62,803 nt of DNA from a virus (IMGVR_UViG_3300030106_006483:1-62803), one strand, 5' to 3'. Positions 30,413 to 50,752 are shown, numbered from the stretch's first letter. A program made the numbers and translations. Notes: generated from the sequence alone by a model not told the origin.

Positions 30413-33058
30413 ATGGCAAATGGCGGAATTATCGGACCTGTTAATACAGTCGCAGGCAAACCAGCACAATTAACAACTCAGATTAATTCTACTGGATCTC
30501 ATACACTTCAATCAACAACATCAACTGTAGATTTTATAGCAGTCGCTGCCGGAGGTGGTGGAGGCGGTAACTATGGTGGCGGTGGTGGAGCAGGTGGAGT
30601 TTTAAAAAGTTTTTGTAATGCATGTTTAGCAGCAATTCCAGTTTGTGGAGGAGCAAGTGTCCCAGTAACAATTAATGGTGGTGGATCGGGTGGAGTAAAT
30701 AGTGGACCTGGTCAAGGAGGAGATGGTGGTACTTCAGTAGTAATATTAGGTGGAACAACTTACACAGCAACCGGTGGCGGTGGCGGTGGTGGTCGTGGTA
30801 TGACAGGTGGTAGAGATGGTGGATCTGGTGGTGGTAAATCTGCGGGATCTGCAGGATCAGGAAATACACCGGCGATCGCGGCACCCTTAGGAGGACCTCA
30901 AGGAAACGCAGGTGGTGGAACTGCTTGTGGTGCTGGGGGTGGTGGCCGTGGCGAAGCTGGTTGTACCGATGGAACAAGAGCAGGTGGTGATGGAATTGCA
31001 TTAACAATTGGTGGAACACCTTATACACTCGCAGGTGGTGGTGGAGGTGGTGGACCAACAGGTTGTCCAGGAACTTCTCCAGGTGGAGATGGAGGTGGTG
31101 GAAATGGATCATTAACTGCTGAAGGATCGGCAGGAACTACAAACACTGGCGGTGGCGGTGGCGGTGGAAATAGTACACCTTTCGTTAATGGTAAAACTGG
31201 TGGTTCAGGAACAGTAATTCTTCAAGAAAATTATACATGCGGCCAACAGGCCCCAGGTGTTTGGCAACTGAACACCGTATATGATTTCGTAAAAAATGAT
31301 AATTGGATTTATAATCAAGCAGATGTAGATTATTTAGTAGTAGCCGGAGGTGGTGGAGGTGGTTATCAATCAACTGGAGGTGGTGGAGCTGGAGGTTATA
31401 GAGCTTCTGGTTACGGACCTTCTCCATTACAAGGATGTTCATTAAAGCTAAAATGGGGAACTTATCCTGTCACAGTTGGAGGCGGCGGTGCCGGTGCAAC
31501 TGGATCTGGATGTAGAGGAACAAGCGGACAAAATTCAGTTTTTGAAACAATTACTTCAAGCGGCGGTGGTGGCGGTGGAGGAGATGGTTCAATGACCGGT
31601 AATCCAGGAGGTTCTGGTGGTGGAGGAGCAAATGGTGGTGCTGGAGGATCAGGTAATGCAGGTGGATTTCCAAAAGCAGAAGGTCAAGATGGAGGTACGG
31701 CAACCCCTAGTTCTCCTTCAGGAGCAGGTGGTGGTGGAGCACTTGTAGCTGGTGCTGCAAATTCAGGACCCTCTGGAGGTGATGGTGGTGCAGGAGCACC
31801 AAATGCCATTACCGGATCAGCACTTTTTTATGCTGGTGGAGGTGGTGGAGGAAGTAGACCAGGTACTACCCCAGCCGCATCATCAGGTGGAGCTGGTGGA
31901 GGTGGACTCGGTGGAACTTGTGATGCAACAGGAACGGTTGGAACCGCAAATACTGGTGGTGGCGGTGGTAATGGAAGATCTAATGGAACGGGATGTTGTG
32001 CACCAGGTAGAACAGGTGGTCCAGGAGTCGTAATTTTAAGGTCATGTGCCTTTTTAAAAACAGATAGTAATTGTGCACCAGTTAGTTCACCTGATGGTGG
32101 TACAGGTACATTTATAGCAGAATTTAAAGCGTCAGCTAATGTAACCATTGGAGGCAGTGCTCCTTCTAATGGTTTTGATTATCTAGTAGTTGCTGGCGGT
32201 GGTGGCGGAGGTGGAATTTGTGGATCTGTTGCTTCTGGTGGTGGCGGAGGTGGAGCTGGTGGTTATAGAACTTCTTTTCCAGGCGGAACAAAAGTATTTT
32301 TAGAAACAGGATCTAATCAAGTAGTAGTAGGTGCTGGTGGAGCAGGTGGTATGGGTACCGCTTGTGGTCAAATTTCAACAATAGGAAAACCAGGTACTGA
32401 TTCTTATGTAGGATACATTACTTCTTTTGGTGGTGGAGGAGGTGGAGGAACCGCTTGTAATAGTATTGGATTCGGTACTGATAATGGACAACCAGGAGGA
32501 TCAGGTGGTGGTGCTGGAGCATGGGCTGGAAATAATGCCCCAGGTGGAACTGGAAATATTCCTGCCGTTAGTTCACCAGGCGCTCCTGTTCAAGGAAATA
32601 ATGGTGCCCCAAGTAATTCAGCAGGTGCATCAGGTTATGGATCTGCCGGAGGTGGTGGAGCATGTGCTGCCGGTAGTTCAGGAACCCCAACAGATGGTGG
32701 AGATGGTGGTGCAGGAAAAGCAAATTCAATTACAGGAGGCTCAGTTACCTATGCAGGTGGTGGTGGAGGATCTACTTATTCTGGTGGAAGTGGTGGAAGT
32801 GGAGGTGCCGGTGGTGGTGGAGCTGGAGCTACAGGTCCAGGTGTAGGAACTAATGGAACCGCAAATACTGGTGGTGGTGCAGGGGGAAGTAATAATAACG
32901 CATCTAGTGCAACAGGAGGCTCAGGAATCATTATTTTAAGAATACCAACAGCTTGTGCACCAGGTAGTTTAGCAGCTGCTCCAGGTACTAATACAATAAC
33001 AGTAGATGGGTCTTGTAAAGTAGCAACATTTACAGTAACTGGGACATTGACAGTATAG
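30413..33058 (+). CDS. Giant glycine-rich adhesin-like protein 1
   Basis: The 881-residue protein is dominated by glycine. It has three modules, each opening with a hydrophobic strand and poly-Gly (the second with VDYLVVAGGGGGG near 305, the third with FDYLVVAGGGGGG near 587), with GGYRASGYGP-type phrases, and closing with a strand like VILR. It ends with a domain shared with 33577-35307 (KVATFTVTGTLTV). Poly-Gly helices packed as in T4-like gp38 adhesins are a reasonable model. It probably recognises the host surface. The poly-Gly text reads as repeats on the other strand; those are not genes. Confidence 0.78.
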   Translation: MANGGIIGPVNTVAGKPAQLTTQINSTGSHTLQSTTSTVDFIAVAAGGGGGGNYGGGGGAGGVLKSFCNACLAAIPVCGGASVPVTINGGGSGGVNSGPGQGGDGGTSVVILGGTTYTATGGGGGGGRGMTGGRDGGSGGGKSAGSAGSGNTPAIAAPLGGPQGNAGGGTACGAGGGGRGEAGCTDGTRAGGDGIALTIGGTPYTLAGGGGGGGPTGCPGTSPGGDGGGGNGSLTAEGSAGTTNTGGGGGGGNSTPFVNGKTGGSGTVILQENYTCGQQAPGVWQLNTVYDFVKNDNWIYNQADVDYLVVAGGGGGGYQSTGGGGAGGYRASGYGPSPLQGCSLKLKWGTYPVTVGGGGAGATGSGCRGTSGQNSVFETITSSGGGGGGGDGSMTGNPGGSGGGGANGGAGGSGNAGGFPKAEGQDGGTATPSSPSGAGGGGALVAGAANSGPSGGDGGAGAPNAITGSALFYAGGGGGGSRPGTTPAASSGGAGGGGLGGTCDATGTVGTANTGGGGGNGRSNGTGCCAPGRTGGPGVVILRSCAFLKTDSNCAPVSSPDGGTGTFIAEFKASANVTIGGSAPSNGFDYLVVAGGGGGGGICGSVASGGGGGGAGGYRTSFPGGTKVFLETGSNQVVVGAGGAGGMGTACGQISTIGKPGTDSYVGYITSFGGGGGGGTACNSIGFGTDNGQPGGSGGGAGAWAGNNAPGGTGNIPAVSSPGAPVQGNNGAPSNSAGASGYGSAGGGGACAAGSSGTPTDGGDGGAGKANSITGGSVTYAGGGGGSTYSGGSGGSGGAGGGGAGATGPGVGTNGTANTGGGAGGSNNNASSATGGSGIIILRIPTACAPGSLAAAPGTNTITVDGSCKVATFTVTGTLTV

Positions 33059-33098
33059 AAAAATTAAATTATAAATATAACTTTTAAGGAGTAAAAAT

Positions 33099-33566
33099 AT
33101 GGCACATTTCGCAGAACTTAAAGCAATGACAGATCCTACTGGATTTACGTCAGATTCACATCAAGTAGTACAAAGAGTTGTCGTTGTAGGCAATGATATT
33201 TCTACAGCAGCCGGTGATTTAGGAAATAATGACATGCATGTTGATGGAGAAAATTGGTGCGTTAATTTTTTTAAAGGTGGTATCTGGAAACAAACTTCTT
33301 ATAATCATAATTTTAGAAAACAATATTGTGGTAAAGGATATGTTTACGATCCATTAAAAGATAAATTCTTAGCCCCACAACCATATCAATCTTGGTCATT
33401 AGACGGTAATGATGATTGGCAAGCGCCAGTTACATATCCAACTGATACTACAGATAAGTTTATTAGTTGGGACGAACCTAATCTAAGATGGATCGCACAA
33501 GATAACTCAGATCCAGTAAATAATTTTAATTGGGATGCATCAGCGCTAGCTTGGGTATCCGCATAA
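33099..33566 (+). CDS. Conserved fibre-region protein
   Basis: The 155-residue protein (MAHFAELKAMTDPTGFTSDS; VVQRVVVVGNDI; GGIWKQTSYNHNFRKQYCGK; WEAPVTYP-like ending) matches a family very common in marine cyanophage and pelagiphage fibre regions. Function unknown; perhaps an attachment or chaperone part of the adhesin, as it sits between two adhesin-like genes. Confidence 0.72.
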   Translation: MAHFAELKAMTDPTGFTSDSHQVVQRVVVVGNDISTAAGDLGNNDMHVDGENWCVNFFKGGIWKQTSYNHNFRKQYCGKGYVYDPLKDKFLAPQPYQSWSLDGNDDWQAPVTYPTDTTDKFISWDEPNLRWIAQDNSDPVNNFNWDASALAWVSA

Positions 33567-33576
33567 GGAGACTCAT

Positions 33577-35307
33577 ATGGCTAGTCCTTCAGGATCAGCA
33601 AACGGCGGTATTATAGGACAAACGAATAACTCTTCGTTTGGTAAGTGTACTATTACTACTAAAACAGCAACAGGTTGTTTTACAACACAACCAGGAACAA
33701 GAGTTGTTCAAGCTTTATTAGTCGCTGGCGGTGGATCAGGTGGATCTGGAGCTGCTGGTGGTGGCGGTGGAGCTGGTGGTTATCTATGCACTCAAGTAAA
33801 CGTCTGTGCATCAACAGCATACAAATTAACTATAGGGGGCGGAGGAGCAGCCACACCTGCAACAGGTGCTTGTGCTTGTGATTCATTAGGAAAAGGAACT
33901 TCTGGAGAATCTACAATATTATCTCCTGCACCTAGCGTGCCAACGGCTTTAGCAACGGCTGTTGGTGGAGGAGCAGCAGGTGGATTTAGAGATACACCGG
34001 GAGTACCTGGTGGATCAGGCGGAGGTGGTGGAGCTTTTAATCCTAGCGGTTGTCCAGGACCTAATCCAGGTGGAACTGGAACAGCTTGTCAAGGTAGTAA
34101 CGGAGGACTAGGTTTTAGAGCATGTGGAGTTGACGCTGGCGGTGGTGGCGGTGGTGCATCAGCTGTAGGAGCAAATGGTTGTGGTGGAGCCGGTGCTGGA
34201 AATGGTGGTGCTGGAAGTTCTGCATCTCCTTTATCTCCGTGCACATTTGGTGGTGGTGGCGGAGGTGGAGCTGATAGTACTGTGCCCGCAGCTGGAAGTG
34301 GTGGATCTGGCGGTGGTGGAGCCGGTGCAAAAGGACCCTCAGGTAATGGAACTGCAGGAACTGCAAACACTGGCGGTGGTGGCGGTGGAGGTGGTAATCC
34401 TGGAACGTCAGCAGGTGGAGCAGGTGGTTCTGGTAGAGCCGTAGTAAAAGAATTAACTAAAGCAAGTGGTGTGTGGTCACTGCAATCACAGTTTGAATCG
34501 CAAACAGCAGGAACATGGCCTAGATTTATAGCAACTTATCCAAGTGTAGATTATTTAGTAGTAGCCGGTGGTGGAGGAACTTTAGCGTGTACTCCCGCAT
34601 CAGCGGGTGGAGGTGGAGCTGGAGGTTATAGAGCTTCTGGTTATGGCCCTGCACCTTTACAAGGAACAGCTTTAACAGTGGAAGAAGGATGTCACGCAGT
34701 AGTAATTGGAGGTGGGGGAACAGGCCCTGCTGCTTGTAGTAGCGGACAAAATTCAAGTTTTGCTGCCGCAGAATCTTTTGGAATAACTTCAAGTGGTGGT
34801 GGTAGAGGTGGAGGTGGTCCTTCATGTACAGGAACAAATGCTGCGGGAGTACCCGGAGGTTCTGGAGGTGGTGGAGTTGGTTATGGAGGTTATGCTGGCG
34901 GTAGTGGTAATGCTGGAGGTTATACTCCTCCAGAAGGAAATCCAGGTGGTCAAGGTGGTGGATCATTTAATGGTGGTGGCGGTGGAGGCGCTGGTGGAGC
35001 AGGTTCTAATGGACCTCCAAGTGCTGCTGGAGCAGGAGTACCAAACGATATTTCAGGAAGTGGAGTAACATATGCTGCAGGTGGAGCAGGTCAACCTGGT
35101 GGACCAGGTGCAGCCGGAGGTAATAATACAGGAGATGGCGGTAATGCTCATCCAGCTGCAAAAGCTGGTGGTTCAGGAATTGTTATATTAAGATTTCCAG
35201 ATAGTGCAGGTTTAAGTGCCAGCCCAGGAACAAATACTGTAGCACCTGCGCCAGGTTCTACAAAAATTGCTACCTTTACTGTTACAGGGACTTTAACTGT
35301 TTCATAA
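33577..35307 (+). CDS. Giant glycine-rich adhesin-like protein 2
   Basis: The 576-residue protein has the same plan as 30413-33058 with two poly-Gly modules (VQALLVAGGGSGG near 43; VDYLVVAGGGGT near 324) and the same end (ASPGTNTVAPAPG, then TKIATFTVTGTLTVS). The GGAGGYRASGYGPAPLQG phrase is nearly identical in both, so one arose by duplication. Likely a host-recognition fibre tip or its alternative. It directly precedes the four oxygenases. Confidence 0.76.
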   Translation: MASPSGSANGGIIGQTNNSSFGKCTITTKTATGCFTTQPGTRVVQALLVAGGGSGGSGAAGGGGGAGGYLCTQVNVCASTAYKLTIGGGGAATPATGACACDSLGKGTSGESTILSPAPSVPTALATAVGGGAAGGFRDTPGVPGGSGGGGGAFNPSGCPGPNPGGTGTACQGSNGGLGFRACGVDAGGGGGGASAVGANGCGGAGAGNGGAGSSASPLSPCTFGGGGGGGADSTVPAAGSGGSGGGGAGAKGPSGNGTAGTANTGGGGGGGGNPGTSAGGAGGSGRAVVKELTKASGVWSLQSQFESQTAGTWPRFIATYPSVDYLVVAGGGGTLACTPASAGGGGAGGYRASGYGPAPLQGTALTVEEGCHAVVIGGGGTGPAACSSGQNSSFAAAESFGITSSGGGRGGGGPSCTGTNAAGVPGGSGGGGVGYGGYAGGSGNAGGYTPPEGNPGGQGGGSFNGGGGGGAGGAGSNGPPSAAGAGVPNDISGSGVTYAAGGAGQPGGPGAAGGNNTGDGGNAHPAAKAGGSGIVILRFPDSAGLSASPGTNTVAPAPGSTKIATFTVTGTLTVS

Positions 35308-35332
35308 TTTTTAATCTTTACTTTTTCTTTAA

Positions 35333-35356
35333 CGTAATATAAAACATATGTATAAA
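35333..35356 (+). promoter_or_regulatory. Possible promoter of the oxygenase group
   Basis: TATAAA at 35351-35356, with a weak TTTAAC -35 17 bases upstream. The ATG at 35362 is 5 bases after the -10, and no ribosome-binding site is visible, as at 3605. Weak evidence. Confidence 0.35.
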
Positions 35357-35361
35357 GACAT

Positions 35362-35991
35362 ATGAACTTAAGTAATTATTATTGGTATTTTCAATCAGCC
35401 ATTCCTCATCGCATCTGTGATGATATTGTACGCTATGGAAAACAATTACAAGATGGTTTAGCTACTACAGGTGGTTATGGCGATGTTAAAAAATTAAACC
35501 AATCTCAAATTAAAGATTTAAAAAAGAAAAGAGATTCAAATATAGTTTGGATGTCTGATCGGTGGATTTATAAAGAAATACAACCTTATATTCATCAAGC
35601 TAATCAATCTGCAGGATGGAATTTTCAATGGGATTTTTCAGAGTCTTGTCAATTCACTAAATATAATAAAGGTCAATATTACGATTGGCATTGTGATGGA
35701 TGGGATAGACCGTATCAAAGACAACAAGGGGATCCTTCAAATGGTAAAATAAGAAAGCTATCCGTAACTGTTACATTATCGGATCCTAAAGAATATAAAG
35801 GTGGAGAATTAGAATTTGATTTTAGAAATTTAGATCCCGATAAAAAACCTAATGTACATAAATGCAAAGAAATATTACCTAAAGGATCTTTAGTAGTGTT
35901 TCCTGGCTTTGTGTGGCATAGAGTATGCCCAGTTAAAAAAGGATCAAGACATAGTTTAGTAATATGGAATTTAGGATGGCCTTATAAATGA
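35362..35991 (+). CDS. 2OG-Fe(II) oxygenase 1, prolyl hydroxylase-like
   Basis: The 209-residue protein has the full metal and co-substrate set: His110-x-Asp112 in YYDWHCDGW, His186 in FPGFVWHRVCPV and Arg196 in KGSRHSLVIW. KGGELEFDF lies between, as in P4Hc-type enzymes. These enzymes use 2-oxoglutarate and oxygen to hydroxylate proteins, small molecules or nucleic acids. Start without ribosome-binding site; possibly leaderless. It is first of four such genes. Confidence 0.85.
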   Translation: MNLSNYYWYFQSAIPHRICDDIVRYGKQLQDGLATTGGYGDVKKLNQSQIKDLKKKRDSNIVWMSDRWIYKEIQPYIHQANQSAGWNFQWDFSESCQFTKYNKGQYYDWHCDGWDRPYQRQQGDPSNGKIRKLSVTVTLSDPKEYKGGELEFDFRNLDPDKKPNVHKCKEILPKGSLVVFPGFVWHRVCPVKKGSRHSLVIWNLGWPYK

Positions 35992-36731
35992 AAAAGAAAC
36001 AAAAGAAAGCAAGAAAAGTAAAGATTCAAAAAGAATTGGATAAGATATCCTGTGGAAGTGCCAAATCATTTCCTAAACAATTAACTCGAGAAGATTTATT
36101 TAGATGTCCTATATGGTTTGCTGATGAACCTGCATTCGTAGATGATTTAAATAAAGCGTCTGATAAATATATAGAAGATTCTAAAAAGAATTTAAAAAAA
36201 GATATTGATAAAAGGAATAAGGAATTTGGAGATAAAGGAGATATGGGTAACGTGTTTCATTCTACATCATTAATCGGTGATCCTAATTTTAAACAATTAC
36301 AAGATTATATAGGTGCTACAGCCCATAATTTATTGGTAGAAATGGGTTTTGACTTAACCAATTATCAATTGTTTACTACAGAAATGTGGGTACAAGAGTT
36401 TGCTAAAAGAGGTGGTGGACACCATACTTTACATACTCATTGGAATGGTCACATATCCGGTTTTTATTTTTTAAAAGCTAGTGAGAAAACCTCTCGGCCT
36501 TTATTTGAAGATCCTCGGCCAGGAAACATAATGAATCTTTTACCAGAAAAAGATAAAACACAAGTAACCTATGCAAGTTCTCAAATTAATTATGATGTAA
36601 GACCAGGTCGTCTGATATTCTTCCCGTCTTATATGCCCCATCAATATATAGTAGATATGGGATATGAGCCATTTAGGTTTATTCACTGGAACTGTCAAGC
36701 TATACCGAAAGGAGTATTAAATGTCACCTAA
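35988..36731 (+). CDS. 2OG-Fe(II) oxygenase 2
   Basis: The 247-residue protein begins with a basic tail (MKKKQKKARKVKIQK), then a helical part. Its core TEMWVQEFAKRGGGHHTLHT followed by HWNGHISGFYFL and the later PGRLIFFPSYMPHQY matches putative 2OG-Fe(II) oxygenases with His149-x-His151 in place of His-x-Asp, His218 and Arg230. It overlaps gene 1 by 4 bases (ATGA) and gene 3 by 11. Substrate unknown. Confidence 0.8.
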   Translation: MKKKQKKARKVKIQKELDKISCGSAKSFPKQLTREDLFRCPIWFADEPAFVDDLNKASDKYIEDSKKNLKKDIDKRNKEFGDKGDMGNVFHSTSLIGDPNFKQLQDYIGATAHNLLVEMGFDLTNYQLFTTEMWVQEFAKRGGGHHTLHTHWNGHISGFYFLKASEKTSRPLFEDPRPGNIMNLLPEKDKTQVTYASSQINYDVRPGRLIFFPSYMPHQYIVDMGYEPFRFIHWNCQAIPKGVLNVT

Positions 36732-37218
36732 AGTTGTAGAAAATTTTTTATCTCCTTCGAATTATAATGCTTTATACAGTGCCCTTACGAATGAATATTT
36801 TCCCTGGTATTATAATAATTATAAAGTTAAAGAAGTATCTGATAAATTATTTCACTATCAATTTACTCATGTTTTTTTTGAAAATAATAAAATTAATTCT
36901 AGTTATTTTACTATTTTACAATCTTTACTTGAAAAATTAAAACTTAAAACTTTAAAAAAAGTTAAAGCTAATTTAAACCCTATTAGTGACAAGTTAATAG
37001 AATTTAGTGAACATCAAGATGCTTTCAAAGAATTACAATGTACGAGCATGATATATTATCTTAACACTAATAACGGCTATACTAAAATAAAAAATAAAAA
37101 AATAAAATCTAAAGCAAATAAAGCTGTTTTTTTTCCATCTCACGCTTTTCATTTTGGAACAAATTCAACGGATTGTAATAACAGAATGGTGATAAATATA
37201 ATATATAAGGAGGATTAA
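36721..37218 (+). CDS. 2OG-Fe(II) oxygenase 3 (small)
   Basis: The 165-residue protein shows His98-x-Asp100 (SEHQDAF), YYLNTNNGYTKI, then FPSHAFHFGTNSTDCNNRMV with His144 and Arg155. The start (VVENFLSPSNYNALYSALTN; EYFPWYY) fits a short oxygenase family known from cyanophages. AAAGGAG precedes the ATG. The DNA here is more AT-rich and the protein more Lys/Asn-rich than its neighbours. Confidence 0.7.
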   Translation: MSPKVVENFLSPSNYNALYSALTNEYFPWYYNNYKVKEVSDKLFHYQFTHVFFENNKINSSYFTILQSLLEKLKLKTLKKVKANLNPISDKLIEFSEHQDAFKELQCTSMIYYLNTNNGYTKIKNKKIKSKANKAVFFPSHAFHFGTNSTDCNNRMVINIIYKED

Positions 37219-37854
37219 ATGTCATTCAAAAAGAATAAATATACAGTGTTAAAGGGAGTTATCAATAGAGAGATGGCTGATTTTTGTTTTGCTTATTTCT
37301 TAAATAAAAGAAAGGTAGCAAGATTTTTATTTGATCAAAAATATATATCCCCTTTTACTGAGTACTGGGGTGTATGGAATGATCAACAAGTCCCTAATAC
37401 TTATTCTCATTATGGAGATTTAGTCATGGAAACTTTATTACAAAAAGTTCAACCCGTTATGGAAAAACATACCGCGCTTAAGTTATGTCCTACATATTCC
37501 TATGCAAGAATTTATAAAAAAGGGGATGTGTTAGCTAGACATAAAGATAGATATTCGTGTGAAATTTCTACTACCTTAAATTTAGGAGGAGATGATTGGC
37601 CTATTTATTTAGAACCTTCTGGAAGAACGGGTCAAGCAGGTATTAAAGTAGATCTTAAACCTGGTGATATGTTAATATATTCAGGATGTGATCTTGAACA
37701 TTGGAGAGAAGAATTTACAGGCAAAGATTGTGCTCAAGTATTTTTACATTACAATAAAAAAGGTTCTAAACTAGCTAAAGAAAATGAGTTTGATAAGCGT
37801 CCATTTTTAGGACTTCCCGCTTGGTATAAAGGCTTTACATTACCTAAAAAATAA
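37219..37854 (+). CDS. 2OG-Fe(II) oxygenase 4
   Basis: The 211-residue protein has YARIYKKGDVLARHKDRYSC (His108-x-Asp110), STTLNLGGDDWPIYL, PGDMLIYSGCDLEHWREEF (His161) and CAQVFLHY. It resembles 2OG-Fe(II) oxygenases of marine cyanophages. AGGAGG lies before the ATG, which directly follows the third oxygenase stop. It ends the group before a hairpin. Confidence 0.82.
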   Translation: MSFKKNKYTVLKGVINREMADFCFAYFLNKRKVARFLFDQKYISPFTEYWGVWNDQQVPNTYSHYGDLVMETLLQKVQPVMEKHTALKLCPTYSYARIYKKGDVLARHKDRYSCEISTTLNLGGDDWPIYLEPSGRTGQAGIKVDLKPGDMLIYSGCDLEHWREEFTGKDCAQVFLHYNKKGSKLAKENEFDKRPFLGLPAWYKGFTLPKK

Positions 37855-37873
37855 ATTATAATAAAATCTGGTT

Positions 37874-37898
37874 GGGGGAACTCCACCACAATTCCCCC
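37874..37898 (+). terminator. Hairpin after oxygenase genes
   Basis: GGGGGAA (37874-37880) and TTCCCCC (37892-37898) with an 11-base loop. The tail (GACTTTATC) is a poor U-tract, so this may be a processing site or partial terminator. Confidence 0.5.
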
Positions 37899-37931
37899 GA
37901 CTTTATCATATTGATAAATCATTCGATCTAG

Positions 37932-37937
37932 TATAAT
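37932..37937 (+). promoter_or_regulatory. Possible -10 promoter element
   Basis: TATAAT preceded by CTAG. The best -35 (TTGATA) is only 15 bases away, so the promoter is weak or alternative. AGGAG and the ATG at 37955 follow. Confidence 0.35.
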
Positions 37938-37954
37938 TTCAATCAGGAGATTAT

Positions 37955-40162
37955 ATGTTAACAAAAATCACATTAAAACCGGGGTTAGATAAACAATCCT
38001 CAGATACAGGAGCAGAAGGTCGTTGGGTAAATGGCGATTATATGCGATTTAGATATAGTTATCCTGAGAAGATAGGAGGCTGGCAACAGCTTACGTCTAG
38101 TAATTTAGTAGGAGCTGGAAGAGATCAACATGCTTGGGTAGATAGAGCCGGAAATAAATATGTAGCAATTGGAACTAATAAAATGCTTTATGTTTATTTT
38201 GAAGGAGCAGTTTATGATATTACTCCATTAGATACTACAAAATCTCAAGCCGGGGTAGGAATTGGAACTTCGAATGGTTCCGATATAATTACTCTTACCT
38301 TTGCATCTGCTCACAATTTAGAGGTGGGAGACATTATATTATGTAGAAATGGTACCACAGTTTTTACTGCTCCACCTTCAAGTTCTTTTATAGCAGCTGA
38401 TTTTGATAATGATTTATTTGAAGTTTTAACTACTCCAAGTACTAAAACTTTAACTATTAAGATGACTCTTCTAGCTAATAATAATGAAACCGGAACTGGA
38501 GGAGCAGTAGCCACAACCACAATTGATCCTTATTATGCAATAGGGCCAGTTACTCAAGGTTATGGTTATGGATGGGGAACTAATACTTTTGGTGGTAGAG
38601 TTATTCCCCCTACACTAACTACTTTGAATGGAGCTCTAGCTGATGATGCTAATGGTAATAATGGTTCGGCTACAGAAATTACTTTAACATCAACTTCAGG
38701 ATTTACAGTTCCTTCTTCATCAACAGAAATTATTCAAGTAGGAAATGAGTTAATTGGATATACAGGAATTACAGGAAATAAAGTAACAGGAATTACAAGA
38801 GCATACAGCGGAAGTGCAAGATCTTCTCACTTGAATGGAGCTACGGTTTATGATGCCAGTAGCTATGTGGGTTGGGGCAGTGCAAGTACATCAGCTCAAG
38901 TTGTATTAGAACCAGGACAATGGAGATTAACTAACTATGGAGAAAACTTATTGGCTTTAGTACATAATAAAAAAGTATTTGAATGGGATCCAGATAGTGG
39001 ATCTGGTTTAACTGTTAGAGCAACTGTTTTAGCAAATGCACCAACTTCTTCAAGAGACATGGCTGTTTCTACTCCTGATAGACATTTAGTGTTTATTGGA
39101 ACCGAAACAACAATAGGTAGTTCAGGAACACAAGATGATATGTTTGTAAGATTTTCGGATCAAGAAAGTATTAACGCAACAGACTCTTATACTCCTAGTG
39201 CAACTAACACCGCGGGATCTCAAAGATTACCTGATGGATCTAAATTAATGGCAGTTATTGCGGGTAAAACAGCTTTATATGTTTGGTCGGATACAGCGAT
39301 GTATACTATGAAGTTTGTAGGTCAACCATTTACTTTTGGTTTTGAACAGGTTGGAACTAATTGCGGTATATCTAGTCAGCATGCACCTGTTGAAATAGAT
39401 GGTGTAGCTTATTGGATGGGACCAAATGGATTCTTTAAATATACTGGAGGTAGGGTTTACAGTATGCCTTGTCTAGTAGAAGATTACGTATTTGAAAATA
39501 TAAATGTTAATGCCAACCAACAAATTCATGGAGCAGTTAATAATTTATTTGGTGAAGTAACTTGGTTTTATTGTAGCAAAGGATCCGATGAAGTGGATCG
39601 TTCAGTAAGTTATAATTATATAGAATCTACAGACAGAGACCCTATTTGGACTACATCTTCTTTAGCAAGAACTACTTGGACTCCAGAAGGAGTTTACGGA
39701 AAACCTTATGCTACACAATACAAAACAGCTGTTGCTCCTACTGCTCCTGAAGTTAACGGAGTTACAAATGGGGCAAGTTATTTTTGGCAACATGAAATTG
39801 GAACTGATGAAGTTTTTGCTAGTGGTACCACTAATGCAATTACAGCAAGTATTGAATCAGGAGATTACGATATAAGTAAGGATCAGGGGCTACCAGGAGA
39901 AGGAGAATATATAATGAGAATTAGTAGATTTATACCTGACTTTGGAGCTCAAACAGGTGATGCTCAAGTAAGACTGACAACTAAAGCTTTTCCTAATAGT
40001 GTTGCGGTAGCTAATAACTATACCGCTACTACTTCAACAACCCAACTTAACACTAGGGTGAGAGCAAGACAAATTGCATTTAGAGTAGCAAATACAGGAA
40101 CCGGTGAAAACTGGCGACTAGGAACTTTTAGATTAGACATACACGCAGGAGGTAGAAGATAA
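37955..40162 (+). CDS. Tail hub/stabilisation protein, P22 gp10-like
   Basis: The 735-residue protein begins MLTKITLKPGLDKQSSDTGA, then EGRWVNGDYMRFRYSYPEKI and AWVDRAGNKYVAIGTNKMLY. This is a family seen in many podophages and probably a beta-propeller-like tail hub equivalent to P22 gp10. The middle has repeated beta phrases (GFTVPSSSTEIIQVGNELIG). With the gp4-like gene it supports a short P22-style tail. AGGAG precedes the ATG. Confidence 0.7.
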   Translation: MLTKITLKPGLDKQSSDTGAEGRWVNGDYMRFRYSYPEKIGGWQQLTSSNLVGAGRDQHAWVDRAGNKYVAIGTNKMLYVYFEGAVYDITPLDTTKSQAGVGIGTSNGSDIITLTFASAHNLEVGDIILCRNGTTVFTAPPSSSFIAADFDNDLFEVLTTPSTKTLTIKMTLLANNNETGTGGAVATTTIDPYYAIGPVTQGYGYGWGTNTFGGRVIPPTLTTLNGALADDANGNNGSATEITLTSTSGFTVPSSSTEIIQVGNELIGYTGITGNKVTGITRAYSGSARSSHLNGATVYDASSYVGWGSASTSAQVVLEPGQWRLTNYGENLLALVHNKKVFEWDPDSGSGLTVRATVLANAPTSSRDMAVSTPDRHLVFIGTETTIGSSGTQDDMFVRFSDQESINATDSYTPSATNTAGSQRLPDGSKLMAVIAGKTALYVWSDTAMYTMKFVGQPFTFGFEQVGTNCGISSQHAPVEIDGVAYWMGPNGFFKYTGGRVYSMPCLVEDYVFENINVNANQQIHGAVNNLFGEVTWFYCSKGSDEVDRSVSYNYIESTDRDPIWTTSSLARTTWTPEGVYGKPYATQYKTAVAPTAPEVNGVTNGASYFWQHEIGTDEVFASGTTNAITASIESGDYDISKDQGLPGEGEYIMRISRFIPDFGAQTGDAQVRLTTKAFPNSVAVANNYTATTSTTQLNTRVRARQIAFRVANTGTGENWRLGTFRLDIHAGGRR

Positions 40163-40329
40163 TGGCTAAAATATCAGAAGTGGTTGCAACAATTGAAGGA
40201 CCAGAATTTGATCAACAAAATGTTCAGAACTTGGCTAACAATGTTATTTCCATTGTACAAAAAATGAATACTACATATCAACAACAATTAAAGGACGAAC
40301 TAGAAGCCTTTACTTTATTTGTAGATTAA
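40162..40329 (+). CDS. Small helical protein
   Basis: A 55-residue protein (MAKISEVVATIEGPEFDQQN; VQNLANNVISIVQKMNTTYQ) starts in a TAATG overlap with the preceding gene. It has a coiled-coil look. Function unknown. Confidence 0.6.
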   Translation: MAKISEVVATIEGPEFDQQNVQNLANNVISIVQKMNTTYQQQLKDELEAFTLFVD

Positions 40330-40348
40330 GTTAGGATAAGAAAAAGAC

Positions 40349-40693
40349 ATGGCGAATGCATATAAAAATAGCATCTATACTACTACAGGAACAGGAGCGG
40401 AAACTATTTATACCGTACCATCTGCAACCGTAGGAATTGTTAAATCCCTTTCTATATTTAATGGAGTGGCAGGTACTACTAATCTAACTATTTCAATACT
40501 AGATAGCAGTGCAGGGACAACTACTTTTTATGCTAAAAACTCCAGTGTAGCAGCGGATGCTAAGGTAGAAATATTTGAAGGCGAAGCTAGCACTGTATTA
40601 GTTTTAGAAGAAGCAGACGCTATTAAAGTAACATCAAGCGGAGGTGCAGGAGTAGTCTGTACTTTAAGCGTATTACAACAGGATAGAGCATAA
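40349..40693 (+). CDS. Small virion protein
   Basis: A 114-residue beta-rich protein (MANAYKNSIYTTTGTGAETI; TVGIVKSLSIFN) comparable in plan to 30007-30399. Probably a decoration or fibre-associated protein. Function inferred only from place. Confidence 0.64.
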   Translation: MANAYKNSIYTTTGTGAETIYTVPSATVGIVKSLSIFNGVAGTTNLTISILDSSAGTTTFYAKNSSVAADAKVEIFEGEASTVLVLEEADAIKVTSSGGAGVVCTLSVLQQDRA

Positions 40694-40893
40694 TGACAAA
40701 AACAGTAAAAGTAGATGGCCAAGATGTGCCATTAATTGAACCAACAGAAATAATAGAAACCTTTACCAATATTAAAACAGGAGAAGTTTATAAGGATGAA
40801 GCAGCCTATAAAGCAGCTAATATTCCCCCAGAAGACTTAAGAAAAGATGTCAAAGTAATCATGCCTCCTCTTGATTTATTTGGTAAAAGCTAG
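40693..40893 (+). CDS. Hypothetical small protein
   Basis: A 66-residue acidic protein (MTKTVKVDGQDVPLIEPTEI; TNIKTGEVYKDEAAYKAANI). The phrase TGEVYKDEAAYKAAN is like small tail-region proteins in cyanophages. Stop/start overlap with the preceding gene. Confidence 0.64.
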   Translation: MTKTVKVDGQDVPLIEPTEIIETFTNIKTGEVYKDEAAYKAANIPPEDLRKDVKVIMPPLDLFGKS

Positions 40894-40962
40894 TAATAGT
40901 ATATATTCAGGCAAAATACCTGCACTCAAAGAGTATAACATTTTCAAGGAGAATTAAAAATT

Positions 40963-42720
40963 ATGGCCGATTGGTGGGATATAGTAAAAACAGGAGCTGA
41001 TATAGTCCTTTCAGGCGGAAAGGCTTACTTAGATTACAAGAGCAAAAAGAAACAAAATGAGATGATTCAAAAGTCTTATGATGATTATATGGCTCAACAA
41101 AAAGAAGCAGCTAAAGTTGCACAGAGAGCTGTTTCAACTAATCTTACCCCCATGACCGTTTTTAATAAACCCTCTACTAAAGCAGATGTAACAGACTTTA
41201 CTGCTGTTAAAGATGGCGGAATTATGAATTTAAAAAATGGATCTCGTCCAACATACCAAGAAGGAATTGGTCCATTGGTTGAACAAGTTTCTATGCAAGA
41301 AGATGTATCTGAAGTACCAGCAGGCGGAGATATGCCACCTGAACTTGCAGAATTAATTAGAAGTTTACACGCAGAACATTATGAAAGATTAAAAGCTATG
41401 GGTAAAACCGACGAAGAAATTATGAAAATTCTTATGGACATGGCTATGAGTATGATTCAAGCAGACGCACAAGGTAAAACTCCTGAAGGAATGGGAGTAG
41501 AGGTTCAAGCTGAAGAAATGATTGATGTAAAAAATGGTGGTATTATGGGACTAAGAAAAGGTGGTAGAAGTAATTATAGATCTCAAGGAATTGTAACAGA
41601 ATCGATAACTCAAGAAAATGAAATAGAGTCTCCACCTCAAGATGAAGTTAGGGTAAATGACATGCTTCTTGGAAGCCCAGATTATCAAGGAGGAATTACA
41701 ACCAGCGATATTATTAATCCAACAAGAACAGATGAAGACGTCCAAGCTGCAAGAGCAGATATAGAAAAATCTAACCAAGCAAATCAAATTCAAGAAACAG
41801 CTACAGTTCTTATAGAAGAACTGATACTGCCTCCAGAGGAAGCTCTAGAAGGAGCCCACAAGATAAACGCAGTTGAAAAAGCGGTTCCTGGTGCTAGTCG
41901 TATTGCTCTAATGTTAATAAAAAATCAGCTAATGGATGTAGACTCAGCTATAGACGCAGCTGTAAGGATGGTAAAGAGCTCTCAAATTGATCAATCATTA
42001 GCTCAAGGTGGTATCATAGGACTAAGAAAAGGTGGTAGAAGTAATTATAGATCTCAAGGTTTTGTAGATGAAGATGAAGATATAGAAGTAATGGACCCTG
42101 AATCACTAGGAGACTATGAACTTAAAATGGAAGAAGGAGTTGACATTGGTCCAATGGCTACTGGCCCGAGTGATAAATATGAAGCACAAATTCAAAAACT
42201 TATGCAAGAAATGAATATTAGTAGAGAATTAGCTGAAGCATTAATACTTGGTTCTGATCCTGCTTCAGTAGATTTCTTAAAAAATTTAAGAAAAGGTGGT
42301 ATTGCAGGTTTAAGACAAGGCGGAAGAATTGGGTATTCTGAAGGTAGTTGGGAAGCAGAATGGGACAGGCTTTATAACGACTACAAAGCAAAACAGATTG
42401 AATTAGGAAAAGAATTTGTATCTAAAGAAGAGTTTATAGATATGCATAGAGATAACAATGCTCAAGGCGGAAGAGTTCAAAGATACGGTGGGGGTGTGAT
42501 GGATCTTGGGGGAATAGAAAAAGATTATAGAACAACTGGGGGCTTTGTTGACATTGGTGGTAGAGAAAGAGCGGATGATGTTCCAGCTCGATTAAGTAGA
42601 AATGAATTTGTAATGACAGCCGATGCAGTAAGAGCTGCCGGCGGTGGTAGTATTAATAAAGGTGCACAAAGAATGTATAATGTAATGAAACATTTAGAAA
42701 CAAAAGGAGCTGCAGCTTAA
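40963..42720 (+). CDS. Virion protein with repeated GGIM/GGR motifs
   Basis: The 585-residue protein has a short N-terminal domain (MADWWDIVKTGADIVLSGGK) and many GGI/GGR phrases: DGGIMNLKNG, KNGGIMGLRKGGRSNYRSQG, QGGIIGLRKGGRSNYRSQG and RKGGIAGLRQGGRIGYSEG. Its end (RADDVPARLSRNEFVMTADA then VRAAGGGSINKGAQRMYNVM) is a strongly conserved phrase known from the ends of phage tail and injection proteins. Likely an ejection/internal protein. Confidence 0.72.
   Translation: MADWWDIVKTGADIVLSGGKAYLDYKSKKKQNEMIQKSYDDYMAQQKEAAKVAQRAVSTNLTPMTVFNKPSTKADVTDFTAVKDGGIMNLKNGSRPTYQEGIGPLVEQVSMQEDVSEVPAGGDMPPELAELIRSLHAEHYERLKAMGKTDEEIMKILMDMAMSMIQADAQGKTPEGMGVEVQAEEMIDVKNGGIMGLRKGGRSNYRSQGIVTESITQENEIESPPQDEVRVNDMLLGSPDYQGGITTSDIINPTRTDEDVQAARADIEKSNQANQIQETATVLIEELILPPEEALEGAHKINAVEKAVPGASRIALMLIKNQLMDVDSAIDAAVRMVKSSQIDQSLAQGGIIGLRKGGRSNYRSQGFVDEDEDIEVMDPESLGDYELKMEEGVDIGPMATGPSDKYEAQIQKLMQEMNISRELAEALILGSDPASVDFLKNLRKGGIAGLRQGGRIGYSEGSWEAEWDRLYNDYKAKQIELGKEFVSKEEFIDMHRDNNAQGGRVQRYGGGVMDLGGIEKDYRTTGGFVDIGGRERADDVPARLSRNEFVMTADAVRAAGGGSINKGAQRMYNVMKHLETKGAAA
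41536..41588 (+). repeat. 53-bp intragenic repeat, copy 1
   Basis: Encodes GGIMGLRKGGRSNYRSQG. Differs from 42007-42059 at two bases, much closer than the surrounding code, so it spread by recent duplication or is strongly selected. Confidence 0.85.
42007..42059 (+). repeat. 53-bp intragenic repeat, copy 2
   Basis: Encodes GGIIGLRKGGRSNYRSQG, in frame with copy 1, 471 bases downstream. Confidence 0.85.
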
Positions 42721-43637
42721 TGGCACAACAATTTGATACATCGGGAATGGGGTTACTCCCTTCTGGGGTTCTTCAACCGTACGGTGAAAATATTCTTAAA
42801 TATGGTATCGGGCAACTAGGATCTCCTATCGATGTAGGAGGATTAACTCCTAAAGTTGCAGGACAAACTGCTTTTCAACAACAAGCAGCTCAGGGAATTG
42901 CTGACCTTGCTGGTTTAGGTCAAGTTCAAAGAGACGCTAGTGGCCAGGTTACAGGGTTTACAGGCGGTACAGGTGTTGCATCTTATCAACCTTACTTAGA
43001 TCAAATTTCTCAACAACAGTTAATGGATCCTTCTCAAAGCTATCAACAATTTATGTCACCTTATCAGACAGCTGTAATAGATGAAACTTTAAAAGAATTT
43101 GACAAACAAGCAGCTATTCAAAAACAACAAATTGGAGGAGATGCCTATACTGCAGGAGCTTATGGAGGAGCTAGACAAGGTGTGGCAGAAGCAGAATACC
43201 AAACAGGCTCCGATAGAAACAGAGCAGCTTTAGTGGCAGGATTACAAAGTGATGCATATAACCAAGCTTTAACAAGAAGAGACCAACAGTTAGCTGATCT
43301 ACAAAATATGGCAACTTTTGTTCCCGGATTACAACAAACAAATATTGCAGCAATGGATGCATTAGGTGCACAAGATCAAGCATTAGAACAACAAAAATTA
43401 AACCAATTAGCAGCAGCTAATCAAACTGCATATCAATTACCACTGGATAGAATTACAGATGTTGCAAACGTTTACGGTACAGTATCTGGAGCAATGCCTG
43501 GATCACCAACACAGAAATTTACACAGGACCCAATACTTTCTGGTATTGGAGGATTTTCACAAATGTATTCAATGTTAAATCCAGCTGAAGGTAAAGGTGC
43601 AACGCAATCGTTAATAGATATGATTAGAGGAGCATAA
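42720..43637 (+). CDS. Probable DNA ejection protein
   Basis: The 305-residue Gln/Ala-rich protein has FMSPYQTAVIDETLKEFDKQ and GDAYTAGAYGGARQGVAEAE, which resembles injection/internal head proteins of marine podophages. The middle is a long helix with many Gln. TAATG overlap with the preceding gene. It fits the class of proteins released into the host with DNA. Confidence 0.68.
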   Translation: MAQQFDTSGMGLLPSGVLQPYGENILKYGIGQLGSPIDVGGLTPKVAGQTAFQQQAAQGIADLAGLGQVQRDASGQVTGFTGGTGVASYQPYLDQISQQQLMDPSQSYQQFMSPYQTAVIDETLKEFDKQAAIQKQQIGGDAYTAGAYGGARQGVAEAEYQTGSDRNRAALVAGLQSDAYNQALTRRDQQLADLQNMATFVPGLQQTNIAAMDALGAQDQALEQQKLNQLAAANQTAYQLPLDRITDVANVYGTVSGAMPGSPTQKFTQDPILSGIGGFSQMYSMLNPAEGKGATQSLIDMIRGA

Positions 43638-44785
43638 TGTTTAATAGAATTTTAAAAAGACCCATGTTTAGAAGAGGAGGAGCTAGCTTTTCTGTTCAAG
43701 GAACGGGAATTACTTCAGGGTTAGATACACCTAGAAGAGGATATAAAAGAGGACTGGTAGTTGAACCAGGAGGTTATCAAGGAGACATAGAGGTAGCTAC
43801 TATCAATAAACTTGAAGCCAAAGACAAATATAAGAAAGCGATAGAAGATCAGGGAAAAACTATTACTGAATCAATTAAAGCACCTAGTGGAGACATATTA
43901 GATTACTTTGCATCATTTTCTGATGTTCAAAAAGATCAATATGGTAATGACGAGACTGCGGGTCAAACAAGTTATCGAGGATACGAAAAGGTAATGGATA
44001 AAAGAAGAGAATACCAAGACAAAAAAGCTGCCGCACAAATAGCAGCAGGAGAAGCAGGTGTTGAAGGTGCTAAAACTATTTATGAAGCCACAACAGATGC
44101 AGAGATTAAAATGTTAACTCAAAAGTTAGCTAACGAAGGAGCAATTAACGTAGCAGAAATTGCAAACGCTTTTGAAAATACAGCTACAGGTGGAATGATT
44201 CAAGAAATTAAATCTAGAACAGATATTGATGAAAAGACAAAAAATAAAATGATTCAAGAAATAATAATGAAAAGTAATAAGCCAAAACTAATTGCTAATC
44301 TTACGCAAGCTATTCTAGATAATGCTAGTGCTAATATGATTAAAATGGATCCAGAAAAAGCTGCGCAACAAGCTGCTTCAATTGTAGGAAACATATATCT
44401 AATGATAGGTCTGGGGCAAACTTTTGCTAAAGGTGGCAGAGTTGGATTGCAACAATCTTATCCAGGAACTGTAGGACAAGCTCAAGTAGCTGCACCTCAA
44501 CAAGCTAGTTTTACAGAAACCGAGAATATTATGACTCCTAACCAAGACGTTCAAATTTCAGAAACTGAAACTGTTACTGGACAAAGACCAGTAGTTCAAA
44601 TGCCTTATGAAGAATTTAGAGCAGCCATCCCTGCTGAGGTTAGTGATGAAGTGGTACAATTAATCTATTATAATGAAGACGCCTTTGCAGATTTTTCTTC
44701 CATAAGTACTCAAGCGGATATCTATGCTTTCAACAACAAATACGGAGTGACTCTCGTGTTACCTATGGACACGGAGACAGTGTAG
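43637..44785 (+). CDS. Virion protein with GG motifs
   Basis: The 382-residue protein begins MFNRILKRPMFRRGGASFSV, an arginine/glycine start typical of the GG motif set, and has FAKGGRVGLQQSYPG near 270. The centre is helical (EIKMLTQKLANEGAINVAEI). The C-terminal part (FRAAIPAEVSDEVVQLIYYN) looks like a small compact domain. Probably an internal virion protein. Confidence 0.68.
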   Translation: MFNRILKRPMFRRGGASFSVQGTGITSGLDTPRRGYKRGLVVEPGGYQGDIEVATINKLEAKDKYKKAIEDQGKTITESIKAPSGDILDYFASFSDVQKDQYGNDETAGQTSYRGYEKVMDKRREYQDKKAAAQIAAGEAGVEGAKTIYEATTDAEIKMLTQKLANEGAINVAEIANAFENTATGGMIQEIKSRTDIDEKTKNKMIQEIIMKSNKPKLIANLTQAILDNASANMIKMDPEKAAQQAASIVGNIYLMIGLGQTFAKGGRVGLQQSYPGTVGQAQVAAPQQASFTETENIMTPNQDVQISETETVTGQRPVVQMPYEEFRAAIPAEVSDEVVQLIYYNEDAFADFSSISTQADIYAFNNKYGVTLVLPMDTETV

Positions 44786-44790
44786 GATGA

Positions 44791-47700
44791 ATGGCAGATC
44801 AAAACACATTTCCCAATAGCGAACTAGAAAACGAAAATAAGAAAATTGAGAAAAAAATTTTCGATATCAATGCTATTATTAAAAAAAGATTAGAAGAAAA
44901 TAAAAACAGTGACAACGCGGTTGATATTAATAAACTTATAGAGGAAAGATTAAAAGGAAACACTTCCGATACTGAAGCCTCAGACGTTAATAAAAAAATT
45001 TCTGAAAGATTAGGTATAGACGTTTCGACCTTAGGGAAAACTAATGACATTATCTCCGACGAAGATCGTTCTTATGTAAACACTTTAGGAACGAAAGATC
45101 ATGAAAAAGTTTTATTATACCTAGATATTTTTAGAGACAATCCTGAGATTGTAACAGACTATTTACAAACTATTAAAAAATGGGGATCAGAAAAAGCTGC
45201 TAAAGAAGCAGGTTCCGATAGCCTATTGCTTTATCCTAAAAAGATAAGCAAAGTAATTAAAGAAAACCCCGAACAATTTACAGAAGCAAGCGCAAAAAGA
45301 TTTAGTTTTTATAATGATTTAGGCGAGCATCTTTATAATATTCAAATAAGAGAAGACCAATGGGGAAGAAAATATCAAAAAGAATGGCTTGGTAAAAAAC
45401 GAACTAAAGCTGGACTAGCAGTTGCAGAAGCGCTCGGAGATAGTGCGAGAGGTCTAACACTAACTCTTTCTGGTCTTATTGATAGGGTGGGACCTGAGAA
45501 TGCAGTCAGCGCTGTTGAGTGGATAGAAGCGAACTGGCCTAAAGCAGACGATATTAAATATCCAAATAAACTTTCACCTTTTGCACAAGAAAGTCTGTTT
45601 GCAGACTTAGTACAAGGGTTAGCTCAGTTTGGAATAGATGTTTATCTCGGGGGGAGAATACTTAAAGCATTTAAATGGAGTATTGGAAAAGTTGCCCCGG
45701 GATGGGTTAGCCAAACTACTAAAGAACTTTCAAAGAAAAAACCTAAACTAGATAAATACGGAAAAGAAATAGCCGATGAGTTTGGTAATATTAAATACGC
45801 TTCAAGCATTGCACAGAGGATGGGTTTCTGGGGATTACCTGTTAAGTATGGAATAGGATCAGCACTTACTGATGACCGTCCTCAAGATATGTTAATTAGT
45901 GAAGTAGCTACTCAGGCTGCTCATCAATATGGTCTTACTGAAGAAAATTTAATTCCTTTAAAAGATAAAGAGTGGTACGAAAAACTTACTAAAAAAGAAA
46001 AAGCTTCTTATATTTTAAAAAGAAAATTACTTCATGGAGTAGAAGGTGTTGCTTTATTTGCAGGGTTAACTAAAGCAATTCCTATAGCCGGTAAAGGTAT
46101 ATGGGGAACAACGAAATGGGTGGGTAGAGGAGTGTCAAAGCCAGTTAGCATAGTAATGAATCCTATATCTCAAATAATGGCAAGTAGAAAAACAGGACTT
46201 CCCCAACTTGTAAAAGGAATTAGAAATGCTGGAGGATTTATTGGAAGTAAGGTTTTAAAAATTCCTCCTTATAAAAACTGGGCATTTTTTTCTACTAGCA
46301 TGGGACCATGGAGAGAAAGATTAGCAGCCACAATTGAAGAAAAAATTCTTCCTAGTTTAAGAGTGAGAGGTCCTTGGACTAAAGAAGCATCTCAAATACT
46401 TCAAAAAGGTGACGAGATGGTAAGAAGATATAAAAGAGAAGTGGGACTTCTAATAGGCCAAATAGATAGAGCTGTTTATACTATGCTAAACAAAGGATTA
46501 GCTAATAGAATTATGACTACATCCAGCTCTCAAAGTGGAAAACAATATTGGGATGATGTCATTGCTTATCTTAGAGGAGATATAAAACTTGAGGCTTTAC
46601 CAGCAGTTCTAAGACAACCAGCTAAAGATATTCAAAAGTTAATAGAAAAATTAAGTCAAAAAATTAAACCGTTTGTAAAGAACCAAGAAATTAAAAAAGA
46701 AATTGTAGATGGAATGGGAAAATATTTAACTACTTCTTACAAAATATTTCAAGGAACTTTTAAACCTAATAAAGCTGAGATAGAAGCAGCTCAAAAATAC
46801 TTTGTAGACTTAATTAAAAGAACAGACCCTGCATTTAAAAATGTTAGAGCCGGATCTAAGAAATGGAGTTTATTAAATAGACTAGCTTCTCAAAAAGTAG
46901 ATGATATTTTACAATTTGGTAAAGAAGGAAGTAGTCCTATTGGAAGATTAAATGAAATTAAAAAATTAGTTAGTCCCGATGGAATTTTAAAACCAAAACA
47001 ACAACTTCCAAAAGTAATTGAAGATTTAATGGGTAAAGTTGATGATGGCACTGCCATTATTATGGACACCGTATCCTCTCAAGCCGAACTGTTATCACAC
47101 TTATTTGTTCACAAAAGTATTTTAAGAGAAGGTTTAAAATCAGGGTGGATTGTAACGGACCCTAAAAAATTTGCTATAGAAGGAGTTCAAGAATGGGTAG
47201 CTAAATCTTTAGTTCCTATTTCACAAATAGCTCGAACCTCTAATATTGATATAGCAAAAATATATGCTCATAAAGGTGGCAACTACTACACAACTACAGC
47301 TATTGCTAATGCAATTAGAACGGACGCATTGGCTTCTGATGCAGTATTACAATGGTGGTGGTACCAACCATTCCTAGCCGCGAAGACTGCTTCTCAATTA
47401 AGTAAAACAGTTTTATCTTTAATGACTCAATCAAGGAACTTTGAAACAGCCATGTTCTTTTCTATTATGCAAGGACATATTGGTCCGCAAGCGAGTGTAA
47501 TGGAAGCAATGAAATTTGTTTTTGGAGATGTAGTAGGATCAGGAAAAGTTAATCCTCTTGCTATGAGAAAAAAATTAACCGAATGGACTGAGGTTGGAAT
47601 TTTAGATACTTCTATTGTGGCAGGAGAAATGGAAGCAGTCATAGGGGACATAGTTAAAGGACGATTTGCTAACACGGGTCAGTTGTTTAAATATTTATTA

Positions 47701-49650: not shown

Positions 49651-49841
49651 TGGCTAAAGATAACGCATTACAAAGAATAGATTCCCATGAGAAGTTATGT
49701 AGAATTATGCAAAAGCAAACTCATGAAAGAATTTCTAGAATAAAAAAACAAATCGATAGAATTGAAAGTATTCTATTAGTGTCTGTAGGTGCATTGATTA
49801 CAGGCATGGCTTATGTTATCTTCGCATTAATTCCACAATAA
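49650..49841 (+). CDS. XhlA-like membrane peptide
   Basis: The 63-residue protein has an N-terminal charged helix (HEKLCRIMQKQTHERISRIK) and a membrane helix at about 41-61. This is the layout of XhlA-type haemolysin/holin partners in phage lysis cassettes. It lies directly before the endolysin. The preceding gene's stop overlaps its ATG. Confidence 0.65.
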   Translation: MAKDNALQRIDSHEKLCRIMQKQTHERISRIKKQIDRIESILLVSVGALITGMAYVIFALIPQ

Positions 49842-49845
49842 AATC

Positions 49846-50716: not shown

Positions 50717-50752
50717 AATTCCAGCGCGCCCACACGTATATCCTACATTTTC

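Follow-up and report, generated by a model that had tools for sequence, protein, structure and literature searches.

Oxygenase genes near phage tail fibres are already known. A 2014 paper placed those from the variable islands of marine phages under host recognition (PMC3909814), and oxygenases co-located with a 'ferrochelatase' were described in HTVC023P-type pelagiphages (Wittmers et al. 2022, PMC9599517). These genes belong to the same phage group and are of the same kinds as those in the DNA analysed here; they were read as auxiliary metabolic genes with a heme/iron partner, whereas here the 'ferrochelatase' is itself a 2OG oxygenase. The 2022 paper draws no link to Gly-rich fibres, and the word 'glycine' is absent from its text. 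A 2024 study identified the 'ferrochelatase' as phrog2954 and reported its seasonal enrichment in the abstract (PMC11561400).

Viral prolyl hydroxylases and glycine-rich fibres have also been described. PBCV-1 is reported to encode a prolyl 4-hydroxylase (Eriksson et al. 1999, via PMC9301287), which, as in the proposal made below, is a virus-encoded prolyl hydroxylase linked to viral proteins. However, PBCV-1 is a virus of a eukaryotic alga and not a tailed phage, and the enzyme is not linked there to a Gly-rich adhesin. One paper names viral P4H and tail-fibre collagen side by side and calls their use cryptic (PMC9301287), and a 2026 paper points out phage proteins similar to the human prolyl hydroxylase EGLN3 (PMC12774648). 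The fibre tips Pam3 gp24 and S16 gp38 have a Gly-rich adhesin domain, as do the adhesins studied here, and the descriptions consulted mention no oxygenase for either. Collagen-like proteins of bacteria and phages include viral fibres rich in Gly and Pro, for which the question of hydroxylation has already been raised, but these proteins are built of Gly-X-Y repeats, unlike the domain studied here (longest run 9 residues). To our knowledge, hydroxylation of prolines in its own receptor-binding proteins has not been shown for any tailed phage.

The DNA analysed is a 62.8-kb IMG/VR virus record (62,803 nt, hereafter the window) from a podovirus-like marine phage that is kin to the HTVC023P type. 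As shown in Table 1, it carries a host-recognition cassette of two Gly-rich receptor-binding adhesins, a phrog_7759 protein and four 2OG-Fe(II) oxygenases. The four adjacent oxygenase genes reported by the sequence-only reading are real, with ORFs that overlap or abut on the + strand, and the two Gly-rich proteins are also as it had described them, matching Gly_rich_2 (PF21722) with 165.9 and 89.8 bits against a curated cut-off of 24.3. Scans for promoters and terminators gave matches near chance level. The phrog_7759 protein adjoins Gly_rich_2 fibres near-constantly, whether oxygenases are present or not; its profile had no match in the PDB, and it is possibly a fibre chaperone or a virion part.

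Table 1. Genes of the cassette and its downstream flank in the window.
Feature	Coordinates	Strand	Assignment and remarks
Gly-rich adhesin 1, 881 aa	30413..33058	+	Gly_rich_2 PF21722 / phrog_2295; Gly region 4.9% Pro
phrog_7759 'MAHFA' protein, 155 aa	33099..33566	+	Consistently next to Gly-rich fibres
Gly-rich adhesin 2, 576 aa	33577..35307	+	Gly_rich_2; Gly region 6.6% Pro
ox1, 2OG-Fe(II) oxygenase, PKHD/P4H-like	35362..35991	+	PF13640, phrog_61; H110, D112, H186, R196
ox2, 2OG-Fe(II) oxygenase, TIGR02466-like	35988..36731	+	PF13759, phrog_81; HxH...H, H149/H151/H218
ox3, 2OG-Fe(II) oxygenase	36721..37218	+	phrog_274; model nearest PHD/PHD2; H98, D100, H144, R155
ox4, 2OG-Fe(II) oxygenase	37219..37854	+	phrog_2954; model nearest P. 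putida EF-Tu prolyl 4-hydroxylase; H108, D110, H161
Virion structural protein phrog_3287	37955..40162	+	Downstream flank; context, outside the proposed mechanism

The residues that had been named for the four enzymes were found at their expected positions and are conserved in relatives. The metal ligands were invariant in alignments of 35, 30 and 34 relatives of ox1, ox2 and ox4, respectively, while in relatives of ox3 H98 and D100 were invariant and H144 was at least 90% conserved. Three of the four enzymes (ox1, ox3 and ox4) have the classical HxD...H iron triad. In ox2, HxH...H replaces it in all 30 relatives, which is an unusual ligand set. R196 of ox1 and R155 of ox3, both conserved, are candidates for the basic residue that binds the 2OG carboxylate, and in ox4 several invariant candidates (R97, R163 and Q173) compete for this role. 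The view that the four genes are not recent copies of each other holds, because no mutual sequence similarity was detectable by blastp (best E about 0.3).

In Pfam searches, ox1 matched PF13640 (E=1e-16), ox2 matched PF13759 (E=3e-14) and ox3 matched PF13640 (2OG-FeII_Oxy_3) at E=9e-7, above the cut-off, while ox4 had no Pfam match even at E=1. AlphaFold models of ox3 and ox4, made from alignments of the relatives' loci, had a mean pLDDT of 92.8 and 92.5, respectively. Structure prediction had been suggested as a check, and both models matched 2OG oxygenases of the PDB in Foldseek with probability 1.00. The best matches of ox3 were Dictyostelium PHD and human PHD2 (E=1.8e-7). The best match of ox4 was the EF-Tu prolyl-4-hydroxylase of P. 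putida (E=1.6e-9; PDB 4iw3, 4j25), the nearest solved structure, which shares 10-12% identity with ox4 and differs in being a bacterial enzyme with EF-Tu as its substrate; further matches of ox4 included oxygenases of quite different substrates. The ox1 profile matched PKHD-type hydroxylases and, more weakly, P4Hs, and the ox2 profile matched two uncharacterised solved proteins (3bvc and 2rg4). The double-stranded beta-helix fold is thus assigned by model and Foldseek for ox3 and ox4 and by profile to solved members for ox1 and ox2. Judged by their models, ox3 and ox4 fold as prolyl-hydroxylase-like 2OG enzymes. The PHROG names of both are therefore wrong: a ferrochelatase (phrog_2954) was ruled out for ox4 by the Pfam result and the fold, and a DNA endonuclease V (phrog_274) was ruled out for ox3 by its 2OG-FeII_Oxy_3 match and PHD-like fold.

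The proline content of the Gly-rich regions was then compared among loci with and without oxygenases. In the first comparison, Pro was 6.6% with oxygenases (177 loci) and 2.1% without them (16 loci; p=1.5e-10). Pro in other proteins was equal, and GC differed such that lower Pro would be expected where oxygenases are present. When the MAHFA tree (161 loci) was taken into account by phylogenetic regression, ox1/ox4 raised Pro by 4.4 points (p about 3e-17; under Brownian motion 9.5e-7), and neither GC nor Pro in other proteins had an effect. Of the 20 residues, Pro gave the strongest effect of ox1/ox4 by a wide margin. The content of Asn, Asp and Lys showed no difference in phylogenetic regression, and Pro in the MAHFA protein and other neighbours did not differ by ox1/ox4. 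Thr in the Gly-rich regions was down by 2.9 points with ox1/ox4 (p=2e-6) as Pro rose.

Fresh loci for validation were supplied by two new MAHFA scans aimed at oxygenase-free lineages. Under the original rule, Pro was 4.4% with ox1/ox4 (n=14) and 2.8% with none (n=39; p=9e-4), so that the effect was weaker. The oxygenase-free fresh loci with the highest Pro (L382, L459 and L461) encoded true Gly-X-Y collagen-like proteins, and among the fresh loci Pro was higher with ox4 than with ox1 alone. Some phage proteins that are truly collagen-like have high Pro although no oxygenase was found in their vicinity. After collagen-like proteins were removed and the enzymes were split with a focus on ox4 rather than ox1, both decided after the data had been seen, mean Pro was 6.5% with ox4 nearby (n=153), 3.4% with ox1 alone (n=3), 2.9% with ox2/ox3-type enzymes only (n=12) and 2.1% without any oxygenase (n=51). 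Pro reached at least 4% in 147/153, 0/12 and 2/51 of the loci with ox4, with ox2/ox3-type enzymes only and with none, respectively, and was below 4% in six loci with ox4. These later family counts used profiles built from curated alignments, since the early iterated-profile labels were loose between ox2 and ox3. Separation of ox4 loci from loci with none gave an AUC of 0.98 for the discovery loci and of 1.00 for the new loci, where ox4 had an n of only 4. The Gly-rich Pro of the window, 5.5%, is within the ox4 group.

In the combined phylogenetic regression, ox4 added 4.7 points (p=3e-18; 4e-12 under Brownian motion), other oxygenases added 1.0 points (p=0.02) and GC was not significant; these p-values lean on an uncertain backbone, because only two independent pairs lie on well-supported branches of a best tree with about 10 state changes. 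The independent-pairs test on supported branches had only 1 and 2 pairs in its two runs. Phages of one host, HTCC1062, could also be compared. HTVC025P and Greip, in which no oxygenase was found, had 1.6-3.4% Pro, and HTVC033P and HTVC023P, which carry ox1/ox4, had 5.9-11.3% except for one copy at 2.0%. This copy is the fifth Gly-rich gene of HTVC023P (L003, 15338-16264), which is located apart from the other four (7.8-11.3% Pro) and adjoins a PF13759 oxygenase. Kyanoviridae with other gene orders (S-SM1, MS29 and Mosig) had 6.2-6.5% Pro. Neither GC content nor general proline usage was supported as the cause by the regressions or by Pro in other proteins. The Pro enrichment accompanies ox4 and is limited to the Gly-rich domain. 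That the fibres are Pro-rich when ox4 is nearby suggests that these phages modify their own host-recognition proteins chemically. No earlier report of this coupling, or of the corrected identities of ox3 and ox4, was found among open-licence PMC papers, and subscription journals may hold some.

The cassette block is found again in many IMG/VR contigs and in pelagiphage isolates. Blocks of this kind are carried by the named phages HTVC033P, HTVC023P and 023Pt_psg01 and, among larger phages, by HTVC008M, Mosig, S-SM1 and MS29. In close relatives the order is Gly-rich gene, phrog_7759, Gly-rich gene, ox1, ox2, (ox3) and ox4, followed by a virion protein with the size and place of phrog_3287. A Gly-rich gene was located within 3 kb upstream in 44/44 ox1-anchored loci, and a MAHFA gene in 42/44; these loci, chosen for having at least 2.5 kb of upstream sequence, are 80-90% identical and, as close relatives, represent few independent events. 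HTVC033P, which is treated in a paper on the HMO-2011 type (PMC9038755), has ox1 and ox4 that are 82% and 81% identical to those of the window, respectively. No relative of the window's portal from HTVC033P was found among the records matching that portal, so the cassette appears in two phage backbones. A run of four oxygenases had been considered unusual, which did not hold up: strictly adjacent runs of at least four were present in 37 of 506 loci, the longest having seven, and three was the commonest run length where oxygenases occur in this survey. HTVC023P-type phages encode a 167-aa protein between the MAHFA protein and the oxygenases (L003, 11511-12014; L004, 11032-11535); no Pfam match was obtained for the HTVC023P copy, and many IMG/VR loci have a gene of this size in that position.

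Oxygenases and Gly-rich fibres are not strictly paired, as HTVC027P and the divergent ox4 loci show. It is also common for Gly-rich fibres to occur where none of the searched oxygenases was found; for example, ten records with Gly_rich_2 (W16-W25) had no match to PF13640, PF13759 or ox4. One part of a 133-kb contig (L190) encodes seven Gly-rich and several MAHFA genes in 16 kb with no oxygenase detected. In a scan for divergent ox4, a Gly-rich gene was located within 3 kb upstream in 13 of 61 loci and was absent in 48, so the co-occurrence that the sequence-only reading had suggested as a check is very strong for the close ox1 loci but not for these. Oxygenase runs apart from Gly-rich fibres, named beforehand as the counter-example, exist in part, as three oxygenases but no ox4 in HTVC027P and as divergent ox1-ox4 pairs. 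HTVC027P, a relative of the window's phage, has no Gly_rich_2 gene, and its three oxygenases (L171, covering 32001-52000; 10092-11753, - strand) are on the opposite strand and adjoin a Phage Tail Collar fibre. In T4-like contigs (L325, 9165-10759; L352, 9063-10504), an ox1-ox4 pair with no Gly-rich gene in its neighbourhood is located between genes that, judged by sequence, encode capsid-like proteins on one side and a uvsW-like helicase on the other, which suggests another substrate there. The ox1-ox4 pairs of L318, L328 and L288 adjoin Pro-rich tail-collar-like or other tip proteins. In L318 (3212-4945) and L328 (7678-9729), ox4-ox1 comes after tip proteins in tandem that are tail-collar-like and contain 5-10% Pro; this may be the Pro coupling again, on a different adhesin fold. 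The ox4 loci away from Gly-rich genes indicate that the enzyme family is broader than the cassette.

The Gly-rich profile matched the Pam3 fibre chains 7ypx and 7yfw (E about 7e-7). In Pam3 gp24, the Gly-rich strands build a lattice stem, and the variable distal tip at its end is the proposed receptor-binding part (PMC9608196). In the surveyed Gly-rich set, 96% of prolines were outside the glycine cores, which fits loops. The longest Gly-X-Y runs in the two window adhesins were 9 and 6 residues, so that a collagen-like fibre was ruled out for them. Pro-Gly pairs were not enriched (30%, compared with 33% in shuffles), and the collagen-type rule of Pro directly before Gly is therefore not indicated. 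The earlier proposal that the enzymes hydroxylate the adhesins as collagen is hydroxylated is retained in part. It agrees with the co-occurrence with Gly-rich fibres and with Pro tracking the oxygenases, ox4 especially. The analogy with collagen is a loose one: the domain is more like the Gly-rich tip of Pam3 gp24 than like Gly-X-Y collagen, and its prolines lie between glycine cores. Probably not all four enzymes act on proline, because loci with ox2/ox3-type enzymes alone lack high Pro.

We propose, with a probability of roughly 0.55, that the prolines lying between the adhesins' glycine cores are hydroxylated by ox4, probably together with ox1. The adhesin genes, phrog_7759 and ox1-ox4 apparently form one operon. 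Late in infection, as we infer, ox4, being prolyl-4-hydroxylase-like, and probably ox1 would act on the adhesins, hydroxylating prolines between the cores while the adhesins fold. By analogy with Pam3 gp24, among these inter-core segments would be the variable distal loops for which contact with the receptor has been proposed, and hydroxylation would alter both the rigidity of the loops and the chemistry of their surface, and hence binding. In this scheme, ox2 and ox3 would have different targets, either other residues or other proteins. A broader prediction, that marine tailed phages, including pelagiphages and some cyanophages, use a dedicated enzyme, encoded alongside, for the post-translational hydroxylation of prolines in the Gly-rich proteins with which they bind receptors, is held more tentatively, at slightly less than even odds.

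Other explanations were weighed against the same data. The targets may be the host surface, translation factors such as EF-Tu, or nucleotides, with the fibre neighbourhood serving as a hot spot of gene exchange. The best structural match of ox4 is in keeping with this, as are the many ox4 relatives without Gly-rich genes, the oxygenases of HTVC027P and the occurrence of both gene types in marine phage variable islands (PMC3909814). However, it leaves unexplained why ox4-dependent Pro is found in the Gly-rich domain and not in other neighbours, and we consider it unlikely. It is also possible that the adhesins are modified mainly at Asn, Asp, Lys or other residues and that Pro richness is a by-product of receptor type. 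Four enzymes without mutual similarity suggest several target residues, and ox2, with its different Pfam family, HxH...H site and PDB neighbours, points the same way; but only Pro (up) and Thr (down) differ strongly while Asn, Asp and Lys are unchanged, and the ox1 profile, like the models of ox3 and ox4, indicates a prolyl hydroxylase, which makes this explanation quite unlikely.

The Pro correlation could mainly reflect shared ancestry, Pro-rich adhesin lineages having spread with linked oxygenases that have no enzyme-substrate relation to them. Strictly independent contrasts on supported branches are few, and most high-Pro loci are marine and related. The ox4 effect nevertheless holds under Brownian motion, the same-host contrasts and the Kyanoviridae with other gene orders also show it, and within HTVC023P the Gly-rich copy apart from the others is the Pro-poor one; we give this explanation little credence. 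A role in iron/heme metabolism, in which 2OG oxygenases paired with a ferrochelatase steer host iron use, rests on the published name of phrog_2954 (PMC9599517, PMC11561400). The failure of ox4 to match Pfam at E=1, its 2OG fold at probability 1.00 and its invariant HxD...H make such a role scarcely credible. Hydroxylation of adhesin prolines by ox4, probably with ox1, is the reading that we prefer.

Two names in use are corrected by this work, the 'ferrochelatase' of phrog_2954 and the 'DNA endonuclease V' of phrog_274, and the Pro coupling turns the matter into a question directly testable by mass spectrometry on phages already in culture. If the adhesins are hydroxylated, receptor binding would not be predictable from their sequence alone, and fibres produced recombinantly in the absence of the enzymes could misfold or lack activity. 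If true, the chemistry of host recognition in these phages would be extended beyond the 20 amino acids.
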